Source of the DNA: Ostreibacterium oceani
Lineage (GTDB): Bacteria > Pseudomonadota > Gammaproteobacteria > Cardiobacteriales > Ostreibacteriaceae
NCBI RefSeq assembly: GCF_009362845.1
Contig: NZ_WHNW01000002.1
Span: 1 to 64,000, forward strand
Direction: 5' to 3'
DNA length: 64,000 nucleotides
The first letter of the stretch is position 1. Every line of letters starts with the position of its first letter. Shown piece after piece: positions 23,552 to 35,186 of the stretch. The translations under genes were made by a program, and so were the position numbers. The notes under the pieces were generated by a model. The model was not told the origin of the DNA. It saw only the letters and a program-made list of their open reading frames with translations, and ran no database searches.

Positions 23552-23724
23552 AAAAAGGCGATGCATGCCAAATGGCATCACCGCTTTGAATGTTTTACTT
23601 ACTTCTTAATTATTTTATTTAGTGGTATTCGTGAAACATTTACATAAAAAACGAGGCAAACTTGCGAATGCCCCGTAGTAAATGTTTTCACAACGGAATA
23701 ATCCTTATTGTGAATTGCTTTCAA
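23552..23724 (-). ncRNA. tracrRNA of the type II-C CRISPR system
   Basis: On the minus strand, 23724-23707 reads TTGAAAGCAATTCACAAT, complementary over 18 nt (one G-U pair) to the first 18 nt of the CRISPR repeat in crRNA orientation. The anti-repeat runs into AATAAGGATTATTCC, very similar to the nexus region of known tracrRNAs. Two further structures follow: a long stem GTGAAAACATTTAC / GTAAATGTTTCAC enclosing GGGGCATTCGCAAGTTTGCC, and a terminal hairpin at 23557-23586 (ATGCCATTTGGCAT core) ended by TTTTTATTT at about 23548-23556. The 3' end is set by this terminator and the 5' end is predicted from the promoter. It pairs with crRNA and loads Cas9. The gene is divergent from cas9. Confidence 0.88.
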
Positions 23725-23729
23725 TTCAC

Positions 23730-23759
23730 ATAGTAACACGATATGGATTAAATTATCAA
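23730..23759 (-). promoter_or_regulatory. tracrRNA promoter with overlapping dyad
   Basis: On the minus strand, TTGATA (23759-23754), an 18-bp spacer and TACTAT (23735-23730) preceded by TGT form an extended -10 promoter. Transcription should begin about 23722-23724, at the anti-repeat itself. A perfect 9-bp inverted repeat (TGTGAATTG, AAAG, CAATTCACA; 23709-23730) overlaps the -10 end and start site and could be an operator. Confidence 0.6.
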
Positions 23760-23796: not shown

Positions 23797-26700
23797 ATGA
23801 AAAAAATATTAGGATTAGATTTAGGGACTAATAGCATTGGCTGGGCGATGGTAGGCGAAGAAAGAGATGAAAACAATAAGTTGATCGATGCCGACATCAT
23901 CAAATTAGGTGTACGGGTAAATCCCCTTACCACCGATGAGCTAACTGATTTTGAAAAAGGCAAGCCGCTTTCTACCAATGCAGAAAGAACCCTGAAAAGA
24001 GGTGCTCGCAGGAATCTACAACGGTACAAACTGCGTAGAGAAAATTTAATGGAACTATTGGCTGCCGCTAACATAATTAAGGCAGGCATACCGCTGACGG
24101 AAGTTGGCTCTCAATCAACGCATCAAACACTACAACTACGTGCCAAGGCGGCTCGTCATCCAATAGAATTAAACGAATTGGCAAGAGTACTGCTCGCTAT
24201 CAACAAGAAACGAGGCTACAAAAGCAGTAGGAAAGCACAGTCAGAAGACGAAGGTATGGCAGTAGATGGCATGGCGGTAGCAAAACATTTGTACGACAAC
24301 CAACTAACGCCTGGGCAATACGTACTAGAATTGTTGCTAAAAGGAAAAAAATACATCCCAGATTTTTATCGATCTGATCTGAAAGCAGAATTTGATATTA
24401 TTTGGGAAGTTCAAAAAGCATTTCACCCTGAAATATTAGATGATGAATTATACAAGGCATTAAAAGACCAAGGGCAGCAAAATACGCGCAAAAGGTTTTT
24501 GGCGATAAAAGGCATCTATACTGCAGAAAATAAAGGCAAACGAGAACAGGTAAAGCTACAGGCCTATCAATGGCGTACCGATGCCATACAAAAACGAGTC
24601 CCCATAGCAGCAGTAGCCTATGTACTGACCGAAATCAACAACGACACCAATAAATCTAGTGGTTACCTTGGCAAGATCAGTGACCGCAGCAAAATCTTGT
24701 ATTCTGACGGGTTAACTGTTGGAGAATACCTCTACAACCAAATAAAATCGAATCCGCATACTTCTCTTAAAAATCAAGTTTTCTATAGACAAGACTATCT
24801 GGATGAATTTGAACAAATATGGGAAACTCAAGCAAAATATCACCCCGAATTGACTCCAGCGTTGAAAGAACAAATTCGCGATGTGGTTATTTTTTATCAA
24901 CGTAAATTAAAATCGCAAAAAGGACTCATCAGCCATTGTGTTTTTGAAAGCTGGGAAGAAGTACGCACGGACAAGGCGGGAAATACGGTGTACAACAAAT
25001 CAACCCATCAGCCCAAAATGCGTACCGTAGGTCATAGAGTAATCCCAAAATCCTCTCCACTTTTTCAGGAGTTCAAAATATGGTCGGTACTCAACAACCT
25101 TGAGATAAAATCACTTAAAGATAGTAACAAAGCTGACCTGCTAACAGAGCCCACAACTATTTTTGAAATCGATGAATCGCAGCGGGATTTACTCTTTGAA
25201 GAACTCAACCTAAGAGGGAAACTCACAGAAAAGCAAATACTAAACCTACTTGGCATATCGGCTAAGGAATTCAAAACCAATTACCCAGAGGGGCTAGAGG
25301 GCAATCGCACCAATGCTGCGCTTTTTAACATCTATCAAACCATTGCCGAGAATGAAGGCTATGGGCATGATTGGGAAAAGAAATCTGCCTCGGAAATAAC
25401 CACAGAACTAAAAGCCATTTTCCCAGAAATGGGCATAGAGGCAGGGATACTGGATTTTGATTCCAACCTAGAAGGCAATGATTTTGACAAGCAACCTGCT
25501 TATCAATTGTGGCATTTGCTCTATTCCGTAACGGATGATGATAAGGTTTCGGAAGAGGACAAAATCACCTATGGCAATAATGCAACTGCCTTAAAGAAGA
25601 AGCTTCATCTGAAATTTGGGTTCAAACCAGAATACACCAAACTATTGGCTGCCATAACGCTTTCAGATGATTATGGCAACTTATCGGCAAGAGCCATTCG
25701 CAAAATCATGCCTTTTCTTCAAAACGGCAATCGCTACGATGAGGCTTGCAAACTGGCTGGATACAATCATTCCAATTCATTGACCAAAGAGGAAAATGAA
25801 AAACGAGCGCTCAAAGACAAATTAGAAGTTTTAGCTAAAAATAGTTTACGAAATCCCGTGGTGGAGAAAATCCTCAACCAGATGGTGAATGTCGTCAATC
25901 AAGTTATAGATGAATATGGTAAACCCGATGAAATCCGTGTAGAACTGGCACGAGACCTTAAAAAATCTGCCAAAGAACGAGCCGAAGATATAAAGTTCAT
26001 CGCTGATAATACAAAAGCTAACGACGAGGTACGCCAAATCATTCAAAAAGATTTTGGATTCACCCCAACCCGAAATGATGTGATTCGCTATAAATTATGG
26101 TTAGAGTTGGGCAAGAATGGATACAAGGATATTTTTACCAATCAGCAAATTAAAAGAGAGCAAATATTTTCAAAAGAAATAGATATCGAACACATCATAC
26201 CTAAGGCGTTGCTTTTTGATGACTCTTTCTCCAACAAGACGTTAGCCTTTAGGCAAGTGAATCTCAAAAAAAGCAACCGTACTGCCGTCGATTTCATTTC
26301 CGACGAATATGGCGATGAAGGTCTAGCTCAATTCACGGCTCGTGTAGAGAGCTTATTTAAAAACAACGCCATCACCAAAGGCAAATACAAAAAACTATTG
26401 ATGACCCAAGACAAGCTGCCCGATGGTTTTATAGAAAGAGACCTGCGCAATAGCCAGTACATTGCCAAAAAAGCAACGGCGATGTTGCAGGAATTGGTGC
26501 GCCCTAAAGTAGTGGCCACCACTGGTAAGATTACGGATAGGTTACGTTCGGATTGGGACTTAATCAATGTGATGAAGGAGCTCAACCTACCTAAATACCG
26601 TGAGCTAGGACTGACCAAAATGCAAACAAGAAGGGACAATGGCCAAGAACAGGAAAAAGAAGTAGAGATTATTGAAGGCTGGACCAAGCGCAATGACCAC

Positions 26701-28011
26701 CGCCACCATGCCATGGATGCACTCACGGTAGCATTTACCCATCACAACCATATTCAATACATCAACAACCTAAATGCCAGGAAAAATGAGTTTCATAAAA
26801 AACACAGTAACATCATTGCCATTGAAAAGGTAATCACTGCAACTAAAAATAACAAGCGCTACTTTATCCCGCCTATGCCCAATTTTAGGCAAGAGGCCCA
26901 AAAGCATATAGAAGGCATTTTGATTTCTTTTAAGACAAAGAACAAGGTAGTCACCAAAAATATTAATAAAATCAAAAAGAAAAAAGGCTATACTGACAAA
27001 ACACAGCTCACACCCAGAGGACAATTGCACAAAGAGACCATCTATGGCAAAAGCAAACGCCCCATGGATAAGCCCACCAAACTTAGCAAGCGATTTACAA
27101 TGCAGCAAGCTCAGCTAATCATCGATGCAGAACAACGCAAGCTGGTGTTGGCGCATATGGCACAATTTGGCAACAATCCAGAAATTGCTTTAGATACTAA
27201 AACGCTTAAAAAACAACCTATTACTTGGAAAGATGAGCCACTGAAAGCGGTGCTTTGCTTTGAAGAGATCTTTACCATCCGCAAAGATATAAGCCCTGAC
27301 TTAACAGTGGACAAAGTGGTTGATGATAAGGTGCGAGCGATTTTGCAGCAGCGCATCAAAGACTATGGTAATGCTAAAGCCGCTTTTTCGGACATAGCGA
27401 AAGACCCAATATGGCTCAATAAAGACAAAGGTATCTCCATCAAACGAGTAACCATTACGGGCGTAAGCAATGCCGAGGCACTGCACACCAAAAAAGACCA
27501 TCTGGGCAATGAGATTCTGGATACTAACGGCAAGCCCATCCCTGTGGACTATGTAAGCACTGGCAACAACCACCATGTGGCCATATACCGCGATGCCGAT
27601 GGCAAGCTGCAAGAGCAGGTAGTGTCTTTTTATGAAGCCGTGGCTCGTGTACAGCAAGATCTTCCCATCATAGACAAAGCCTACAATACCGATTTAGGCT
27701 GGGAGTTTCTGTTCACGATGAAGCAAAATGAAATGTTTATTTTTCCTTCGGAAAAAGACAATTTTAACCCTGCACATATTGATTTGATGGATGTACACAA
27801 TGCGGCACTAATAAGCAAGCATTTGTTTAGGGTGCAGAAAATTGCAACGAAAAATTATTTTTTTAGACACCATCTAGAAACCACTGTTGAGAACCATAAG
27901 GAACTAAATGGAATAGCATATAAATCACAATTGGGTTTGAGCGCAATTGAAGGAATCATAAAGGTTCGGTTGAACCACCTTGGTAAAATTGTTCAAATCG
28001 GAGAATATTAA
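23797..28011 (+). CDS. cas9: Type II-C CRISPR endonuclease Cas9
   Basis: The 1404-residue protein is much longer than compact II-C enzymes of about 1000-1100 residues and like the long Bacteroidetes ones. RuvC-I is LGLDLGTNSIGW with D8. The arginine-rich bridge helix is RGARRNLQRYKLRREN (about 66-83). RuvC-II is EIRVELARD with E716. The HNH site has E798-H799 (DIEHIIP) and N827. RuvC-III is HRHHAMDALTVAF with H971 and D974. All catalytic residues are present, so it should cut both strands. The C-terminus has FRVQKIATKNYFFRHHLE, typical of Bacteroidetes Cas9. An AGAGGA ribosome site precedes the ATG. The gene looks AT-richer than its neighbours by eye, which suits horizontal transfer. It is divergent from tracrRNA and followed by cas1 after 15 bp. 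Confidence 0.97.
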   Translation: MKKILGLDLGTNSIGWAMVGEERDENNKLIDADIIKLGVRVNPLTTDELTDFEKGKPLSTNAERTLKRGARRNLQRYKLRRENLMELLAAANIIKAGIPLTEVGSQSTHQTLQLRAKAARHPIELNELARVLLAINKKRGYKSSRKAQSEDEGMAVDGMAVAKHLYDNQLTPGQYVLELLLKGKKYIPDFYRSDLKAEFDIIWEVQKAFHPEILDDELYKALKDQGQQNTRKRFLAIKGIYTAENKGKREQVKLQAYQWRTDAIQKRVPIAAVAYVLTEINNDTNKSSGYLGKISDRSKILYSDGLTVGEYLYNQIKSNPHTSLKNQVFYRQDYLDEFEQIWETQAKYHPELTPALKEQIRDVVIFYQRKLKSQKGLISHCVFESWEEVRTDKAGNTVYNKSTHQPKMRTVGHRVIPKSSPLFQEFKIWSVLNNLEIKSLKDSNKADLLTEPTTIFEIDESQRDLLFEELNLRGKLTEKQILNLLGISAKEFKTNYPEGLEGNRTNAALFNIYQTIAENEGYGHDWEKKSASEITTELKAIFPEMGIEAGILDFDSNLEGNDFDKQPAYQLWHLLYSVTDDDKVSEEDKITYGNNATALKKKLHLKFGFKPEYTKLLAAITLSDDYGNLSARAIRKIMPFLQNGNRYDEACKLAGYNHSNSLTKEENEKRALKDKLEVLAKNSLRNPVVEKILNQMVNVVNQVIDEYGKPDEIRVELARDLKKSAKERAEDIKFIADNTKANDEVRQIIQKDFGFTPTRNDVIRYKLWLELGKNGYKDIFTNQQIKREQIFSKEIDIEHIIPKALLFDDSFSNKTLAFRQVNLKKSNRTAVDFISDEYGDEGLAQFTARVESLFKNNAITKGKYKKLLMTQDKLPDGFIERDLRNSQYIAKKATAMLQELVRPKVVATTGKITDRLRSDWDLINVMKELNLPKYRELGLTKMQTRRDNGQEQEKEVEIIEGWTKRNDHRHHAMDALTVAFTHHNHIQYINNLNARKNEFHKKHSNIIAIEKVITATKNNKRYFIPPMPNFRQEAQKHIEGILISFKTKNKVVTKNINKIKKKKGYTDKTQLTPRGQLHKETIYGKSKRPMDKPTKLSKRFTMQQAQLIIDAEQRKLVLAHMAQFGNNPEIALDTKTLKKQPITWKDEPLKAVLCFEEIFTIRKDISPDLTVDKVVDDKVRAILQQRIKDYGNAKAAFSDIAKDPIWLNKDKGISIKRVTITGVSNAEALHTKKDHLGNEILDTNGKPIPVDYVSTGNNHHVAIYRDADGKLQEQVVSFYEAVARVQQDLPIIDKAYNTDLGWEFLFTMKQNEMFIFPSEKDNFNPAHIDLMDVHNAALISKHLFRVQKIATKNYFFRHHLETTVENHKELNGIAYKSQLGLSAIEGIIKVRLNHLGKIVQIGEY

Positions 28012-28026
28012 CCGTCTGAAATTCAA

Positions 28027-29267
<1,241 letters not shown>

Positions 29268-29300
29268 AAAAATTTACTTTTGCTGTCTAAAAAAATAAGG

Positions 29301-29334
29301 AAAACCAGACGATTATCATTAATCCTCTGGTTTT
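29301..29334 (-). terminator. Terminator between cas2 and CRISPR array
   Basis: On the minus strand AAAACCAGA-G-GATTA and TAATC-G-TCTGGTTTT pair over 14 bp with a single G/G mismatch and an ATGA loop. The tract CCTTATTTTTTT follows (29300-29289). It is placed to end transcripts leaving the array on the minus strand. On the plus strand the T-run is shorter (TTTTC), so termination of the cas operon is weaker. Confidence 0.75.
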
Positions 29335-29337
29335 CGG

Positions 29338-30020
29338 GTTGCTAATCATAGCAGTTTGAAAGCAATTCACAACTCCGAGGGGGTGGCGAATTTTTTGGCA
29401 TCCGTTGCTAATCATAGCAGTTTGAAAGCAATTCACAACCTCTATCTGATTCTGCCCAGTACCCAGTACGTTGCTAATCATAGCAGTTTGAAAGCAATTC
29501 ACAACAGACAACCGCTTTTGTAGTCACCCCGAAAAGTTGCTAATCATAGCAGTTTGAAAGCAATTCACAACCAGGGCTTTCTGTAAGACAATGGAAGCGG
29601 AGTTGCTAATCATAGCAGTTTGAAAGCAATTCACAACTAAAAAGCTATCTTGGAGACTTGTATAACGGTTGCTAATCATAGCAGTTTGAAAGCAATTCAC
29701 AACGAGTAAATAACAATGTTAAGTAATGAAGATGTTGCTAATCATAGCAGTTTGAAAGCAATTCACAACACGTAACGCTGACATTTGACACATTTAATCG
29801 TTGCTAATCATAGCAGTTTGAAAGCAATTCACAACGTAACGTCCATTACCCTATCAGGCCCTATGGTTGCTAATCATAGCAGTTTGAAAGCAATTCACAA
29901 CTAGTAACGTTGATTTTTTTAGGTTGCCTACGTTGCTAATCATAGCAGTTTGAAAGCAATTCACAACATTTGCCCGTGTTGCTTGATGGGGGGGGTCGGT
30001 TGCTAATCATAGCAGTTTGA
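29338..30020 (-). CRISPR. Type II-C CRISPR array, 10 full repeats plus one truncated, 10 spacers
   Basis: Full 36-bp repeats start at 29338, 29404, 29470, 29536, 29602, 29668, 29734, 29800, 29866 and 29932. On the plus strand each begins GTTGCTAATCATAGC and ends AGCAATTCACAAC, and the copies are identical. A truncated repeat at 29999-30020 keeps 22 bp. Spacers are 30 bp, and the last (29968-29998), containing a G-run, is 31 bp. The tracrRNA anti-repeat shows that crRNA is read from the minus strand, towards cas2. In that direction each repeat carries TTGTGA, a 16-bp gap and TGCTATGAT, a promoter that would start at the spacer's first base. No spacer was matched to a source or to this window. 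Confidence 0.97.
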
Positions 30021-30040
30021 GAATGGATTCCCTATCACAC

Positions 30041-30724
30041 CTATCGCCGTAGCAACTGGATCCAGCGTCCAATATTGAGCACACCAATCATTGCTTGGCT
30101 CACGTACGTCAGGGCACACGCCAGCAGTATTTTGCGTATGGCGCTTATATCCCCGTGACTGACGTAGTCGCCCTGCGTCAAAATCGGCAATGCTTTACCA
30201 AAAGAGGCATCAAATTCAACGGGTAAAGTGACCAAATGAATAATGGTCGAAAAAAACATCGAGGCAACGACCACCACCAGCAATAACCGCGCAAAAACCC
30301 CAGCGCCAGGCACCACCGACAACACAGGAATCGCAATCAGCGCGCCCGTTGCCAGCATTTCGACTAGCCTTGCTTGTTTGGCTAAAAAGGTTCGGGTGGT
30401 GAGGGGTTTGTACCTCGCATGATGCTGTAACGCATGGCCGAATTCATGAGCCGCAGTCGCCACTGCCGTCAGGCTTTTGCCATGATAGACTGGCTCGGTC
30501 AGGCGAATCGTCTTGCTAATCGGGTCATAATGATCGCCTGCCTCGGTTTGTTCTAGCGTGACGTCGGTTAATTCAAAGGCATCAATCAAGTGCTTAGCTA
30601 ATTGCCCACCGCTGCCTGGTAAATCCGCGCGATTTTTGCTGTGTTTGGCCAGCACACGTTTGACCCACCAACTCGGCCCCACCAACAAAGCCAACAACAT
30701 ACCGATTAACAATACCCAAACCAT
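30041..30724 (-). CDS. YugP-type membrane zinc metallopeptidase
   Basis: The 227-residue protein has an N-terminal membrane segment (VWVLLIGMLLALLVG), the zinc motif HEFGHALQHH (HExxH) at about residues 92-101, and further membrane segments (MLATGALIAIPVLSVV, LLLVVVVASMFFSTIIHLV). SGGQLAKHLIDAFELTDV and DHYDPISKTIRLTEPVYHG match the YugP-like neutral zinc peptidase family (Zn_peptidase_2). Its physiological substrate is unknown. Its stop lies only 20 bp from the truncated CRISPR repeat, and no terminator separates them, so its transcript may run into the array. Confidence 0.85.
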   Translation of the reverse strand: MVWVLLIGMLLALLVGPSWWVKRVLAKHSKNRADLPGSGGQLAKHLIDAFELTDVTLEQTEAGDHYDPISKTIRLTEPVYHGKSLTAVATAAHEFGHALQHHARYKPLTTRTFLAKQARLVEMLATGALIAIPVLSVVPGAGVFARLLLVVVVASMFFSTIIHLVTLPVEFDASFGKALPILTQGDYVSHGDISAIRKILLACALTYVSQAMIGVLNIGRWIQLLRR

Positions 30725-30792
30725 ACGAATCCGCTAGGCCAACACAACTTAACGATTATTCATCGCTGACTGTAACTGTTGTAAGTCAAGCA

Positions 30793-31278
30793 TTAACGAC
30801 AGCTACCTGGTAAATATTTTCGATCGATATTGGTTTTGCTCTCGCCGATATAATTCAGCCCGTCAATTTTTTTATCTTTGTCTATATACCCACATTTAAA
30901 AAATATCAAATCATTTGATAAGTCTTCGCTAATTACAGGGTGCAGTGTTAGCATCTTACCTGTCAATATCGGGTCTTTATCATTATAAGTGATATGAATC
31001 ACGCCATCGATAATCTCAACTTGCTTGGTATACGCCCCTTTTAATAAATCAGGAGCCTTTACCCCTGCAGCCACATTGTCTTTTGGAAAATCATGCGTAT
31101 AGCGATAATACTCCGCGATTTTTTGGCGTGCTACCGCAGATACCGTAAGCCCTTCCACTGACCTTGCACGGGTTTCATAACTCAGATAAGCAGGTGTCGA
31201 TACCGCAGCCAATACACCGATAATGGTAGCGACAAAAATAAATTCAAATAGTGTGTATCCCGCTGATTGTTTTTTCAT
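30793..31278 (-). CDS. Type IV pilin-like protein (divergent prepilin)
   Basis: The 161-residue protein starts with a short basic leader MKKQSAG and the prepilin segment YTLFEFIFVATIIGVLAAVS. Cleavage is expected after Gly7, and Glu5 of the mature form is kept although the usual F-TLIE is Y-TLFE. The C-terminal domain has two cysteines (FKCGY, PGSCR), consistent with a pilin D-loop disulfide. It lies 4 bp after the platform-like gene and forms a three-gene cassette with it and the next pilin. It could be a minor or alternative pilin. Confidence 0.8.
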   Translation of the reverse strand: MKKQSAGYTLFEFIFVATIIGVLAAVSTPAYLSYETRARSVEGLTVSAVARQKIAEYYRYTHDFPKDNVAAGVKAPDLLKGAYTKQVEIIDGVIHITYNDKDPILTGKMLTLHPVISEDLSNDLIFFKCGYIDKDKKIDGLNYIGESKTNIDRKYLPGSCR

Positions 31279-31282
31279 TTAA

Positions 31283-32233
31283 TTAACTCGCAATGTCTCC
31301 TAGCTGGAAAATAGGCAGATACATGGCATAAACTGGAATTACTGATAACGCAATAAAAATCAACAAAACAAAGATTGCCATTGTCCCTTCTGCCGCTTTG
31401 GTTTGCTGTAATAACTGACGAATAACGGCCTGTTTACGAAATAAAATTTCATTATCAATTGCACCCATCTCCTCCGCTATCGCCAAAAAAGCCTGCGTAT
31501 TCTGATTGATTTTGATTTTTGGTAGTGCTTTTTGTGCCACCTGTAGGGCTTTTCCCTCGCCAGCAAAGTGACCACAGTGCATATACATCAACAATAAATA
31601 CTGATGATAAGAACGAACAACAGGGTAGTAAAGTGGAATAAGCTTAAAATAACTGGGGATAGGTTTGAGTTGGCTCATATTTTTGCGCAGATGAATAGGC
31701 AATAAAAACGCCAACAGCAGTATAATCAAAAATGCAACCGTTGAAAACCAAAAGTAATGCCCATGAAGCATCCACTGCGTCACGGCGGGCAACTCTGCGC
31801 CAAAATCACCAAAAAAATCCTCAAACACTGGCAAAACTTTTATTCTTGATATCAAAGAAGAACCCACGGAGACAATCACCATCATGGCAAAATACCAATA
31901 CGCAACTGGATTTAGCTTATAAATCTCTGACAAATCCAATCTAGATTGCTCCAACCGATTATATTGTAACACGTACTGATTCAGGCTGATGTTGCCACAT
32001 TTTGCCAGATGGAATAACCCATGCCATAGCCCTAGCCCTTTGCTAGGCAGTTTGTTTATATTCCCAGCTAAAATCATTGATACCATTGACAACGATTTTT
32101 GGTATCGTGGGGCTAAATTCGATTGCAATTTTTCAAGCGTCGCTGGCTTGTCTTCTGCTGCCATAACTGTTCTAGAGACTTCATCTAGCTGCGTTTCGTT
32201 ATGATTAAAATAGTTAAAAAATATCTCTAGCAT
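31283..32233 (-). CDS. Short PilC/GspF-like inner-membrane platform protein
   Basis: The 316-residue protein has the features of a type II secretion F domain: about three membrane segments (WYFAMMVIVSVGSSLI, FWFSTVAFLIILLLAFLL, MAIFVLLIFIALSVIPVYAM), the block VFEDFFGDFGAELPAVTQWML before segment two, and a C-terminal YLPIFQLGD like the YxPIF end of PilC. It is about 90 residues shorter than usual PilC and diverged, and the N-terminal F domain looks incomplete. Flanking pilin genes on both sides suggest a dedicated assembly platform for them. No ATPase, peptidase or secretin gene is nearby. Confidence 0.7.
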   Translation of the reverse strand: MLEIFFNYFNHNETQLDEVSRTVMAAEDKPATLEKLQSNLAPRYQKSLSMVSMILAGNINKLPSKGLGLWHGLFHLAKCGNISLNQYVLQYNRLEQSRLDLSEIYKLNPVAYWYFAMMVIVSVGSSLISRIKVLPVFEDFFGDFGAELPAVTQWMLHGHYFWFSTVAFLIILLLAFLLPIHLRKNMSQLKPIPSYFKLIPLYYPVVRSYHQYLLLMYMHCGHFAGEGKALQVAQKALPKIKINQNTQAFLAIAEEMGAIDNEILFRKQAVIRQLLQQTKAAEGTMAIFVLLIFIALSVIPVYAMYLPIFQLGDIAS

Positions 32234-33425: not shown

Positions 33426-35186
33426 TTAGGGTTTAAATTGTAACGCATTTTGACGCAAATGTTGCGCATGCTCCAAAGTTTTTTCATCCATCGCGATACC
33501 ACCGCTCATGCGCGCCAGCTCGGCGATTTTTTGCGCCTCGTCTAAATAGGCAAAATGCGTGGTGGTCATTGCGTCATTTACTTGCTTACTAATCAGGATA
33601 TGGTTATCCGCATAGGCGGCCACCTGCGCCAAGTGCGTCACACACAAAATCTGATTATACTGGGCGAGCGTTTTTAGCAATCGCCCAACGACCTCGGCTG
33701 TCGCGCCGCCAATCCCGCTATCGACCTCGTCAAAAATCAGCGTCGCATCGGTTTTTTGTGAAACACTGGCAACCTGAATGGCTAGGCTAATGCGAGACAA
33801 CTCACCACCTGATGCAATCTTATGCAGTGGTTTCGCAGCTTGCCCAGGGTTAGGGGCAAACATAAACAACACGTTATCCACGCCCGATGCCGTCGCGCGC
33901 GTCGCCGATATCGTAATATCAAACACCGCATTCACGAGGTTTAGCTCGTCCAACCGCGCATTAACCTGCTGTGCCAATTGTTTCGCTGCGAGCTGGCGGC
34001 TGTCACTGAGTGCTTGGGCGGCTTGTCTATACTGTTTTTCAGCTTCAGCAATCTGTTTGTCAATGTCCTGTAATTGCAAAAGGCTTTGGGTCAGTGCATC
34101 GCGCTCATCGGCGATGGCTTGGGTCAAATCCAACAAGGCATCGGGGCTGGTGTGGTGCTTTCTCGCGAGTTGGTGCAAGGCTGACATACGCGACTCAACC
34201 TCAGCCAGCTGCGCGGGGTCTAATTCGATACGGTTGATATAATGCGCTAATGCGCTATTGGCTTCATCGGCGTAAATCCTCGTTTGCGCGATAAAGTCGG
34301 CGATTTCCTGCGCGTCATCATCAGTGGCTTGTAATTTATCACACAGCGTATTCGCTCGTTGTAATACCGCTAACAACCCCTCGCCTTCGCCTTCGAAGTG
34401 CTGCTGTAGCTGCTGGCTCAGGTCTAGTCTTGCGCTTGCGCTTGCCAATTGTTTTTGCTGACTTTCTAGGGCTTCGAATTCATCGGGCTGCAAATTAAGC
34501 GCCGTTAATTCGTCTAATTGATAATCCAGTAGGTTTTTTTTATCAATCAAGCTTTGGTCATTGTCTTGGAGCTGTGTTTTCCGTTTTTCTAATTGTTGCC
34601 ACGTCGCATAGGCAGTTTGCGTCTGGGTCAATAAATCGTGATGCACTGCAAACCCGTCTAATAACTGGCGTTGCTGTTCTGGTGCAGTGAGAGATTGATG
34701 GGCGTGCTGACCATGAATATCAACCAATAATTCACCCAAGTGCTTGGTCATTCCGACAGTCACGGGAATGCCATTGATATAACATTGCGATTTACCGTTA
34801 CGGTTTAACGTACGGCGCAGGTGGCAAACGCTATCGACCGAAGCCGCACCGCCTAGCAATTCATCGCCTAGCAATTCATCGCCTAGCAATTCATCGCCTA
34901 GCAATTCATCGCCCAGCAATTCATCATCTAATAACTCATGGGCTAATAACCACTGGTAGGCAGCGCTACTAGGCGATAAAGTCAGGCTGGCTTGGATATC
35001 AGCGCGTGTTGCGCCATGGCGAATCCACGTCGCGTCAGCCCGATCACCTAGTTGTAAGCCCAATGCATCAATCAATATCGATTTCCCTGCACCCGTCTCG
35101 CCTGACAAGACATTTAACCCAGGCGCAAAGGTAACGGTTTGCTCGTCAACAATGGCGAAATTTTTTAGAAATAGTTGCGATAACAT
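33426..35186 (-). CDS. recN: DNA repair ATPase RecN
   Basis: The 586-residue SMC-like protein has Walker A GETGAGKS at residues 29-36, long coiled-coil arms (about 165-370), and a C-terminal head with IASGGELSRISLA (signature) and TLIFDEVDSGIGGATAEVVG (Walker B). RecN acts in recombinational repair of double-strand breaks. It is about 30 residues longer than E. coli RecN, and the excess is a DELLG repeat at about 84-112 inserted in the first lobe before VCHLRRTLNRNGKSQCY. A 13-bp tandem array lies just upstream of its start. Confidence 0.94.
   Translation of the reverse strand: MLSQLFLKNFAIVDEQTVTFAPGLNVLSGETGAGKSILIDALGLQLGDRADATWIRHGATRADIQASLTLSPSSAAYQWLLAHELLDDELLGDELLGDELLGDELLGDELLGGAASVDSVCHLRRTLNRNGKSQCYINGIPVTVGMTKHLGELLVDIHGQHAHQSLTAPEQQRQLLDGFAVHHDLLTQTQTAYATWQQLEKRKTQLQDNDQSLIDKKNLLDYQLDELTALNLQPDEFEALESQQKQLASASARLDLSQQLQQHFEGEGEGLLAVLQRANTLCDKLQATDDDAQEIADFIAQTRIYADEANSALAHYINRIELDPAQLAEVESRMSALHQLARKHHTSPDALLDLTQAIADERDALTQSLLQLQDIDKQIAEAEKQYRQAAQALSDSRQLAAKQLAQQVNARLDELNLVNAVFDITISATRATASGVDNVLFMFAPNPGQAAKPLHKIASGGELSRISLAIQVASVSQKTDATLIFDEVDSGIGGATAEVVGRLLKTLAQYNQILCVTHLAQVAAYADNHILISKQVNDAMTTTHFAYLDEAQKIAELARMSGGIAMDEKTLEHAQHLRQNALQFKP
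34851..34925 (-). repeat. 15-bp in-frame tandem repeat within recN (5 units)
   Basis: Units of GCCTAGCAATTCATC (plus strand) start at 34851, 34866, 34881, 34896 and 34911, followed by a degenerate sixth. They encode the DELLG pentapeptide on the minus strand. Four units are identical. Confidence 0.95.

Follow-up and report, generated by a model that had tools for sequence, protein, structure and literature searches.

A putative promoter within each repeat of a type II-C CRISPR array of Ostreibacterium oceani, in a locus of apparent Bacteroidota ancestry

A type II-C CRISPR array in the gammaproteobacterium Ostreibacterium oceani raises the question of how its crRNAs are expressed, and whether the repeats themselves supply the promoters. 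We analysed the array and its surroundings within a stretch of 64,000 nucleotides (contig NZ_WHNW01000002.1, positions 1 to 64,000), referred to here as the window (Table 1). The explanation that we consider highly probable is that each repeat carries its own crRNA promoter, in a two-module II-C locus that was acquired from Bacteroidota. Repeat-embedded promoters are a known mechanism, with an experimental precedent in Campylobacter jejuni (PMC3656092); what is new here is a different register and a cross-phylum history.

Table 1. Features of the CRISPR locus, in coordinates of the window.
Feature	Position	Strand	Remarks
tracrRNA	23646–23724	−	Anti-repeat 23708–23724; body as in Bacteroidota relatives; terminator hairpin with T-run
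Candidate tracrRNA promoter, sigma-70 type	23730–23759	−	TTGATA, 18 bp, TACTAT with TG
cas9 (1404 aa)	23797–28011	+	Type II-C; nested among Bacteroidota Cas9s
cas1	28027–28947	+	Family match
cas2	28926–29267	+	Family match
Terminator-like hairpin and U-run	29288–29335	−	Directly after the last repeat
Ten perfect 36-nt repeats	29338–29967	−	crRNA sense GTTGTGAATTGCTTTCAAACTGCTATGATTAGCAAC; nine of the ten spacers lie between them
Repeat starts (plus coordinates)	29338, 29404, 29470, 29536, 29602, 29668, 29734, 29800, 29866, 29932		
Example of the putative repeat-embedded promoter (last repeat)	29345–29372	−	−35 TTGTGA 29372–29367, −10 TATGAT 29350–29345 with TG
Oldest spacer, 31 nt	29968–29998	−	Downstream of the −10 of the extra repeat
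Extra (first, oldest) repeat, degenerate	29999–30034	−	Keeps repeat positions 15–36 with the extended −10
Zn_peptidase_2 gene	30041–30724	−	Points into the array; possible read-through source

The locus comprises cas9, cas1 and cas2 only (23797–29267) and, as type II-C loci do, lacks csn2 and cas4; no further ORF separates cas2 from the array. The perfect repeats run from 29338–29373 to 29932–29967 with a period of 66, and the nine spacers other than the oldest are 30 nt each. On the plus strand upstream of cas9, TTGTGAATTGCTTTCAA at 23708–23724 equals repeat positions 2–18 in minus sense, so that a minus-strand tracrRNA would pair with the 5′ half of the minus-sense repeat. All 17 bases of this anti-repeat match the repeat exactly. 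The tracrRNA then reads TAAGGATTATTCCGTTGTGAAAACATTT, a stretch that many Bacteroidota relatives share without change, and its end is a hairpin with six U; a search of Rfam gave no match. The array is opposite to the cas operon and has a degenerate repeat at its 5′ end, both typical of type II-C, and the hairpin after the last repeat (−20.1 kcal/mol, z −5.9) is followed by CUUAUUUUUUU. Anti-repeat, hairpin and opposite-running cas9-cas1-cas2 together form the type II-C layout, which points to the minus strand as the one that encodes the crRNAs. The anti-repeat and the hairpin thus lead to the same orientation as that given in the initial annotation. The end-palindromic repeat and the position of the degenerate repeat far from cas2 would have suited a plus-strand reading with a leader beside cas2, but that orientation is ruled out by the strand of the anti-repeat, by the terminator of the tracrRNA and by the hairpin that follows the last repeat.

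The spacers gave no phage match, scans of viral contigs for exact spacers were empty, and the sole match in a plasmid search was a Persicobacter array, so that no PAM was derived. The motif CGTTAC occurs near the 3′ end (crRNA sense) of three successive spacers (29770–29931). Elsewhere in the window, the pentapeptide GDELL is tandemly repeated in a RecN-like ORF (33426–35186, minus strand).

In minus sense, each perfect repeat contains TTGTGA at positions 2–7, a 16-bp gap, TATGAT at 24–29 and TG at 21–22, exactly the letters that had first been read there. The arrangement recurs each 66 bp, as far as 29939–29966. The claim that every repeat carries such a promoter motif stands for the ten perfect repeats; the degenerate eleventh, whose identity to them is limited to 29999–30020, has lost the tracrRNA-pairing 5′ part together with the −35 and retains the extended −10 only. 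A consensus scan recovered all ten sites (9/12 matches, TG present), one sigma-70-like promoter within each repeat as in Neisseria and Campylobacter; shuffles of the whole 2.2-kb region gave 4.9 sites of any kind. TTGTGA-N16-TATGAT has only one further occurrence in the 2.18-Mb genome. With weights taken from approximate textbook frequencies, the repeat has a sigma-70 score of 11.5, which is reached by 0.26–0.32% of repeat shuffles, and its reverse strand scores 2.7. The weak points are a −35 with only 4/6 matches and a gap that is short of the ideal at 16 bp. Taken alone, the sigma-70 match of the repeat is better than chance but not overwhelming; the comparison with relatives below carries more weight. 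This modest single-locus significance (about 0.3% of shuffles) is what would allow an AT-rich repeat to resemble a promoter by coincidence, which we nonetheless judge to be extremely improbable: Bacteroidota and gammaproteobacterial II-C repeats each bear the promoter element of their own host at a fixed place.

The array had also been called leaderless. This is correct for the 5′ side of the transcript only; the cas2-proximal end, which is the acquisition end of type II-C arrays, has 70 bp with the strong terminator-like hairpin. Of 57 arrays, 36 (window included) have a hairpin with a T-rich tail in the 110 nt that follow the last repeat, compared with 15 of 285 shuffles; on the opposite strand there, the count is 20 of 57, partly because hairpins are symmetrical. 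Such a hairpin would end the crRNA transcripts and, as the putative promoter of the last repeat is aimed at cas2, would halt its outward transcription ahead of that gene and so prevent antisense RNA to the cas genes. In many Flavobacteriia (L012, L014, L021, L062 and others), a hairpin ATACC.GCC..AACAGGCTGGTAT followed by a T-rich stretch adjoins the last repeat, and this recurrent hairpin may be terminator and acquisition leader at once.

The close relatives of the window Cas9 are nearly all from Bacteroidota (48–65% identity, in data with one genome per species). In a Cas9 tree built with a quick method, it is sister to two Tenacibaculum proteins (L025 and L067; support 99) inside the Bacteroidota clade. 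Among the members of the host's own order in a class-wide sample, none had this Cas9, and a Cas1 match was present in 1 of 31 other members, with only 35% identity. The straightforward reading would be that a gammaproteobacterium acquired the II-C locus from Bacteroidota, a transfer whose direction and age we infer. The Cas1 belongs to this broad group as well, with a long branch (1.5). Its identity to the Bacteroidota relatives (28027–28947; about 40%) is lower than that of Cas9 (65%) and Cas2 (about 60%), and the 36-nt rather than 46-nt repeat may be linked with this divergent Cas1. The other 36-nt repeat among the clade relatives belongs to L017, where the Cas1 branch is likewise long.

Bacteroidota promoters are unlike sigma-70 promoters and consist of a −7 element, TAnnTTTG, and a weaker −33 motif (PMC7366714). 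In the flanks of the Bacteroidota loci, TAnnTTTG was found upstream of ORFs 52 times, compared with 19 ± 4.7 in shuffles and 35 on the antisense strand, and TATAAT was not enriched (33, compared with 47.1 in shuffles). A promoter in the 3′ half of the repeat should take the form TAnnTTTG in Bacteroidota, and this is what we found. Of 52 distinct Bacteroidota repeats, 40 have TAnnTTT[G/A] 18–21 bp after the TTG of repeat positions 2–4, whereas 2000 rounds of shuffling gave a mean of 0.6 and never more than 5; at least 5/6 element matches are present in 48 (shuffle mean 3.1). When the repeats were thinned at 75% identity to 28 dissimilar ones, the corresponding numbers were 20 (shuffle mean 0.3, maximum 3) and 25 (shuffle mean 1.6). 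The exact consensus with the final G occurs in 11/52, and reversing or reverse-complementing the variable half left 0–1 matches. An unanchored MAFFT alignment of the repeats blurred the element through indels, and the evidence is that of the position-restricted shuffles. The n positions of TAnnTTT vary freely, and the T, A and TTT hardly at all. Pairing with the anti-repeat does not explain the element, because in the relatives it usually reaches only repeat position 16–25. The element is missing in place from L059, L073, L076 and L084, and L049 and L069 have GATCTTTG instead. No published report of TAnnTTTG inside CRISPR repeats was found in a literature search that covered few subscription journals.

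The first repeat of a II-C array yields no useful crRNA, yet it must still drive spacer 1. It has been described as mutated in its first 15 nt, and a need to keep the promoter has been suggested (PMC12080349). By suffix analysis, a 5′-truncated extra repeat is present in 25 of the 46 arrays assessed, and the whole −7/−10 element is kept in 21 of these; about 15.5 of 25 would be expected with uniform cut points from 9 nt upward (p about 0.004 for 22 or more, a hand binomial estimate). As for the other truncated repeats, L062 keeps the element with a change at an n position, L039 lacks its first base, L072 keeps part of it, and the 9-nt match of L037 may be chance. Truncation could partly reflect decay of the oldest end of the array.

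The conserved 3′-half element might instead be a recognition or ruler site for spacer integration by Cas1-Cas2. Cas1-Cas2 act on repeats as their substrate, and the change to 36 nt accompanies an unusually divergent Cas1 (end branch 1.5). However, the extra repeat retains the element at the end that does not acquire spacers, and it also lies ahead of the tracrRNA, where no spacers are integrated. Moreover, the core of the element coincides exactly with the −7 consensus known from Bacteroidota and is plausibly spaced from TTG, and the window repeat has changed precisely to the sigma-70 consensus; we therefore regard an integration site as very improbable. Less remote, though still unlikely, is a read-through precursor that starts in the Zn_peptidase_2 gene or at a promoter further upstream and renders the repeat motif incidental. 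That gene shares the strand of the array, 21 bp separate its end from the conserved part of the extra repeat, a scan shows no terminator between them, and read-through would fit processing by tracrRNA and RNase III. On the other hand, the scan of the minus strand over 30020–31400 turns up no sigma-70-like site, the relatives have the motif conserved at its position and its type switches with the host, and extra repeats tend to retain the promoter half. Besides promoters within the repeats, read-through from 30041–30724 may be an additional source of transcripts.

At the place of the Bacteroidota element, the window repeat has TATGATTA, which matches at 4/6 positions and is not of the TAnnTTTG type. 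TATGAT is preceded there by TGC. None of 57 Bacteroidota repeats reaches the sigma-70 score of the window repeat, and its Bacteroidota-type score is among the lowest in the same comparison. Between the sister repeat of L025, TTGTATCTTTAG, and that of the window, CTGCTATGATTAG, there are two core substitutions and one inserted base, which gives rise to TGn. A parallel change is seen at the tracrRNA promoter. In 46 of 49 relatives, TAnnTTT[G/A] lies within 30 nt of the anti-repeat, and the window has a sigma-70 type there, with a score reached by 2 of the 49. The tracrRNA promoter thus underwent the same switch independently; the pairing and bound parts were kept, and both promoters changed. The comparison with some 57 relatives suggests that the start signal in the repeat was rewritten to suit the new host when the locus moved from Bacteroidota to a gammaproteobacterium, the host switch being a single event. 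We regard it as likely that the Bacteroidota II-C clade has a promoter for the primary sigma factor in each repeat, and that the repeat and tracrRNA promoters were both rewritten to sigma-70 upon transfer while the RNA-pairing parts stayed fixed.

The initial annotation had matched the array to those of Neisseria and Campylobacter. The working principle is indeed the same, but the arrangement differs, with the −10 at 24–29 as in the Bacteroidota relatives. In common with the II-C loci of C. jejuni and Neisseria meningitidis, the window has one sigma-70-type promoter per repeat, an array antisense to cas9-cas1-cas2, a tracrRNA with an anti-repeat, and a mutated extra repeat at the 5′ end of the transcript. 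In both of these, Neisseria as well as C. jejuni, the −10 is formed by the last six repeat bases, whereas the last six bases of the window repeat are AGCAAC and transcription is expected to start 5–7 nt earlier, in the repeat. C. jejuni has GGTAAAAT as its −10, and its transcripts start at spacer position 5 (PMC3656092). Applying the C. jejuni distance to a −10 at 24–29 places the predicted start at about repeat position 34–36. A crRNA should then consist of the whole spacer and one to three repeat bases, beginning in the last bases of the repeat and not in the spacer, so that the predicted crRNA 5′ ends differ from those of Neisseria and Campylobacter. Among gammaproteobacterial II-C arrays whose Cas9s are of other kinds, 18 of 18 have TAnnnT at the 3′ end of the repeat (about positions 31–36), a count that is partly built in, as these arrays were oriented by their repeat ends. 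The window Cas9 is of a different lineage from the gammaproteobacterial II-C Cas9s compared (22–32% identity).

The locus resembles CRISPR1 of Riemerella anatipestifer and its Bacteroidota relatives (Cas9 of about 1400 aa) in Cas9 (48–65%), tracrRNA body, 5′ half of the repeat and layout. Their repeats are 46–47 nt with TAnnTTTG, while that of the window is 36 nt with TATGAT. The Riemerella study reported no promoters in the repeats (PMC5006608); the Riemerella repeat (L010) contains TATCTTTG, which gives this array family a concrete −7 element. For the II-C arrays of Flavobacterium columnare and F. psychrophilum, within-array transcription towards the variable end has been suggested on the basis of a TTG motif and RNA-seq (PMC8092290, PMC10309648), but these papers name only the TTG in the repeat and no −7 element. 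L088, whose Cas9 is only 26% identical and whose 36-nt repeat is of another kind, does not have TAnnTTTG. The II-C locus on plasmid pPP11 of Persicobacter psychrovividus shares a 36-nt repeat with the same 5′ half, but TACCTTTC at 24–31 is of the Bacteroidota type and not sigma-70. On this Persicobacter plasmid (L137), cas9 and an array of 26 repeats of 36 nt were present, with no cas1 or cas2 nearby in an incomplete gene table.

The proposal of one promoter per repeat, and its placement, is backed by the sequence features, orientation, conservation and phylogeny described above, from which we infer transcription and its start sites. The 5′ half of the repeat (1–18) would pair with the tracrRNA and become the 3′ handle of the crRNA, and the 3′ half would be the promoter for the next spacer. 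In Bacteroidota, this promoter half would hold TAnnTTTG, the −7 element that belongs to the primary sigma factor of the phylum, and in this host a sigma-70 extended −10 (TGCTATGAT) that uses TTGTGA of the 5′ half as its −35. RNA polymerase would start at about the last one to three repeat bases and read through the spacer and the 5′ half of the next repeat, to which the tracrRNA would pair, and RNase III (or Cas9-bound trimming) would set the 3′ end of the crRNA.

The locus offers a natural experiment on repeat-embedded promoters: two phyla that differ in their sigma factors share the same RNA parts, and the difference lies in the promoter letters. If our reading is true, the repeats would be composite modules that evolve under two codes, and the promoter grammar of the repeat would be a barrier to the spread of type II-C systems between phyla. 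Such a barrier could be one cause of II-C arrays failing to work after a move from one phylum to another.
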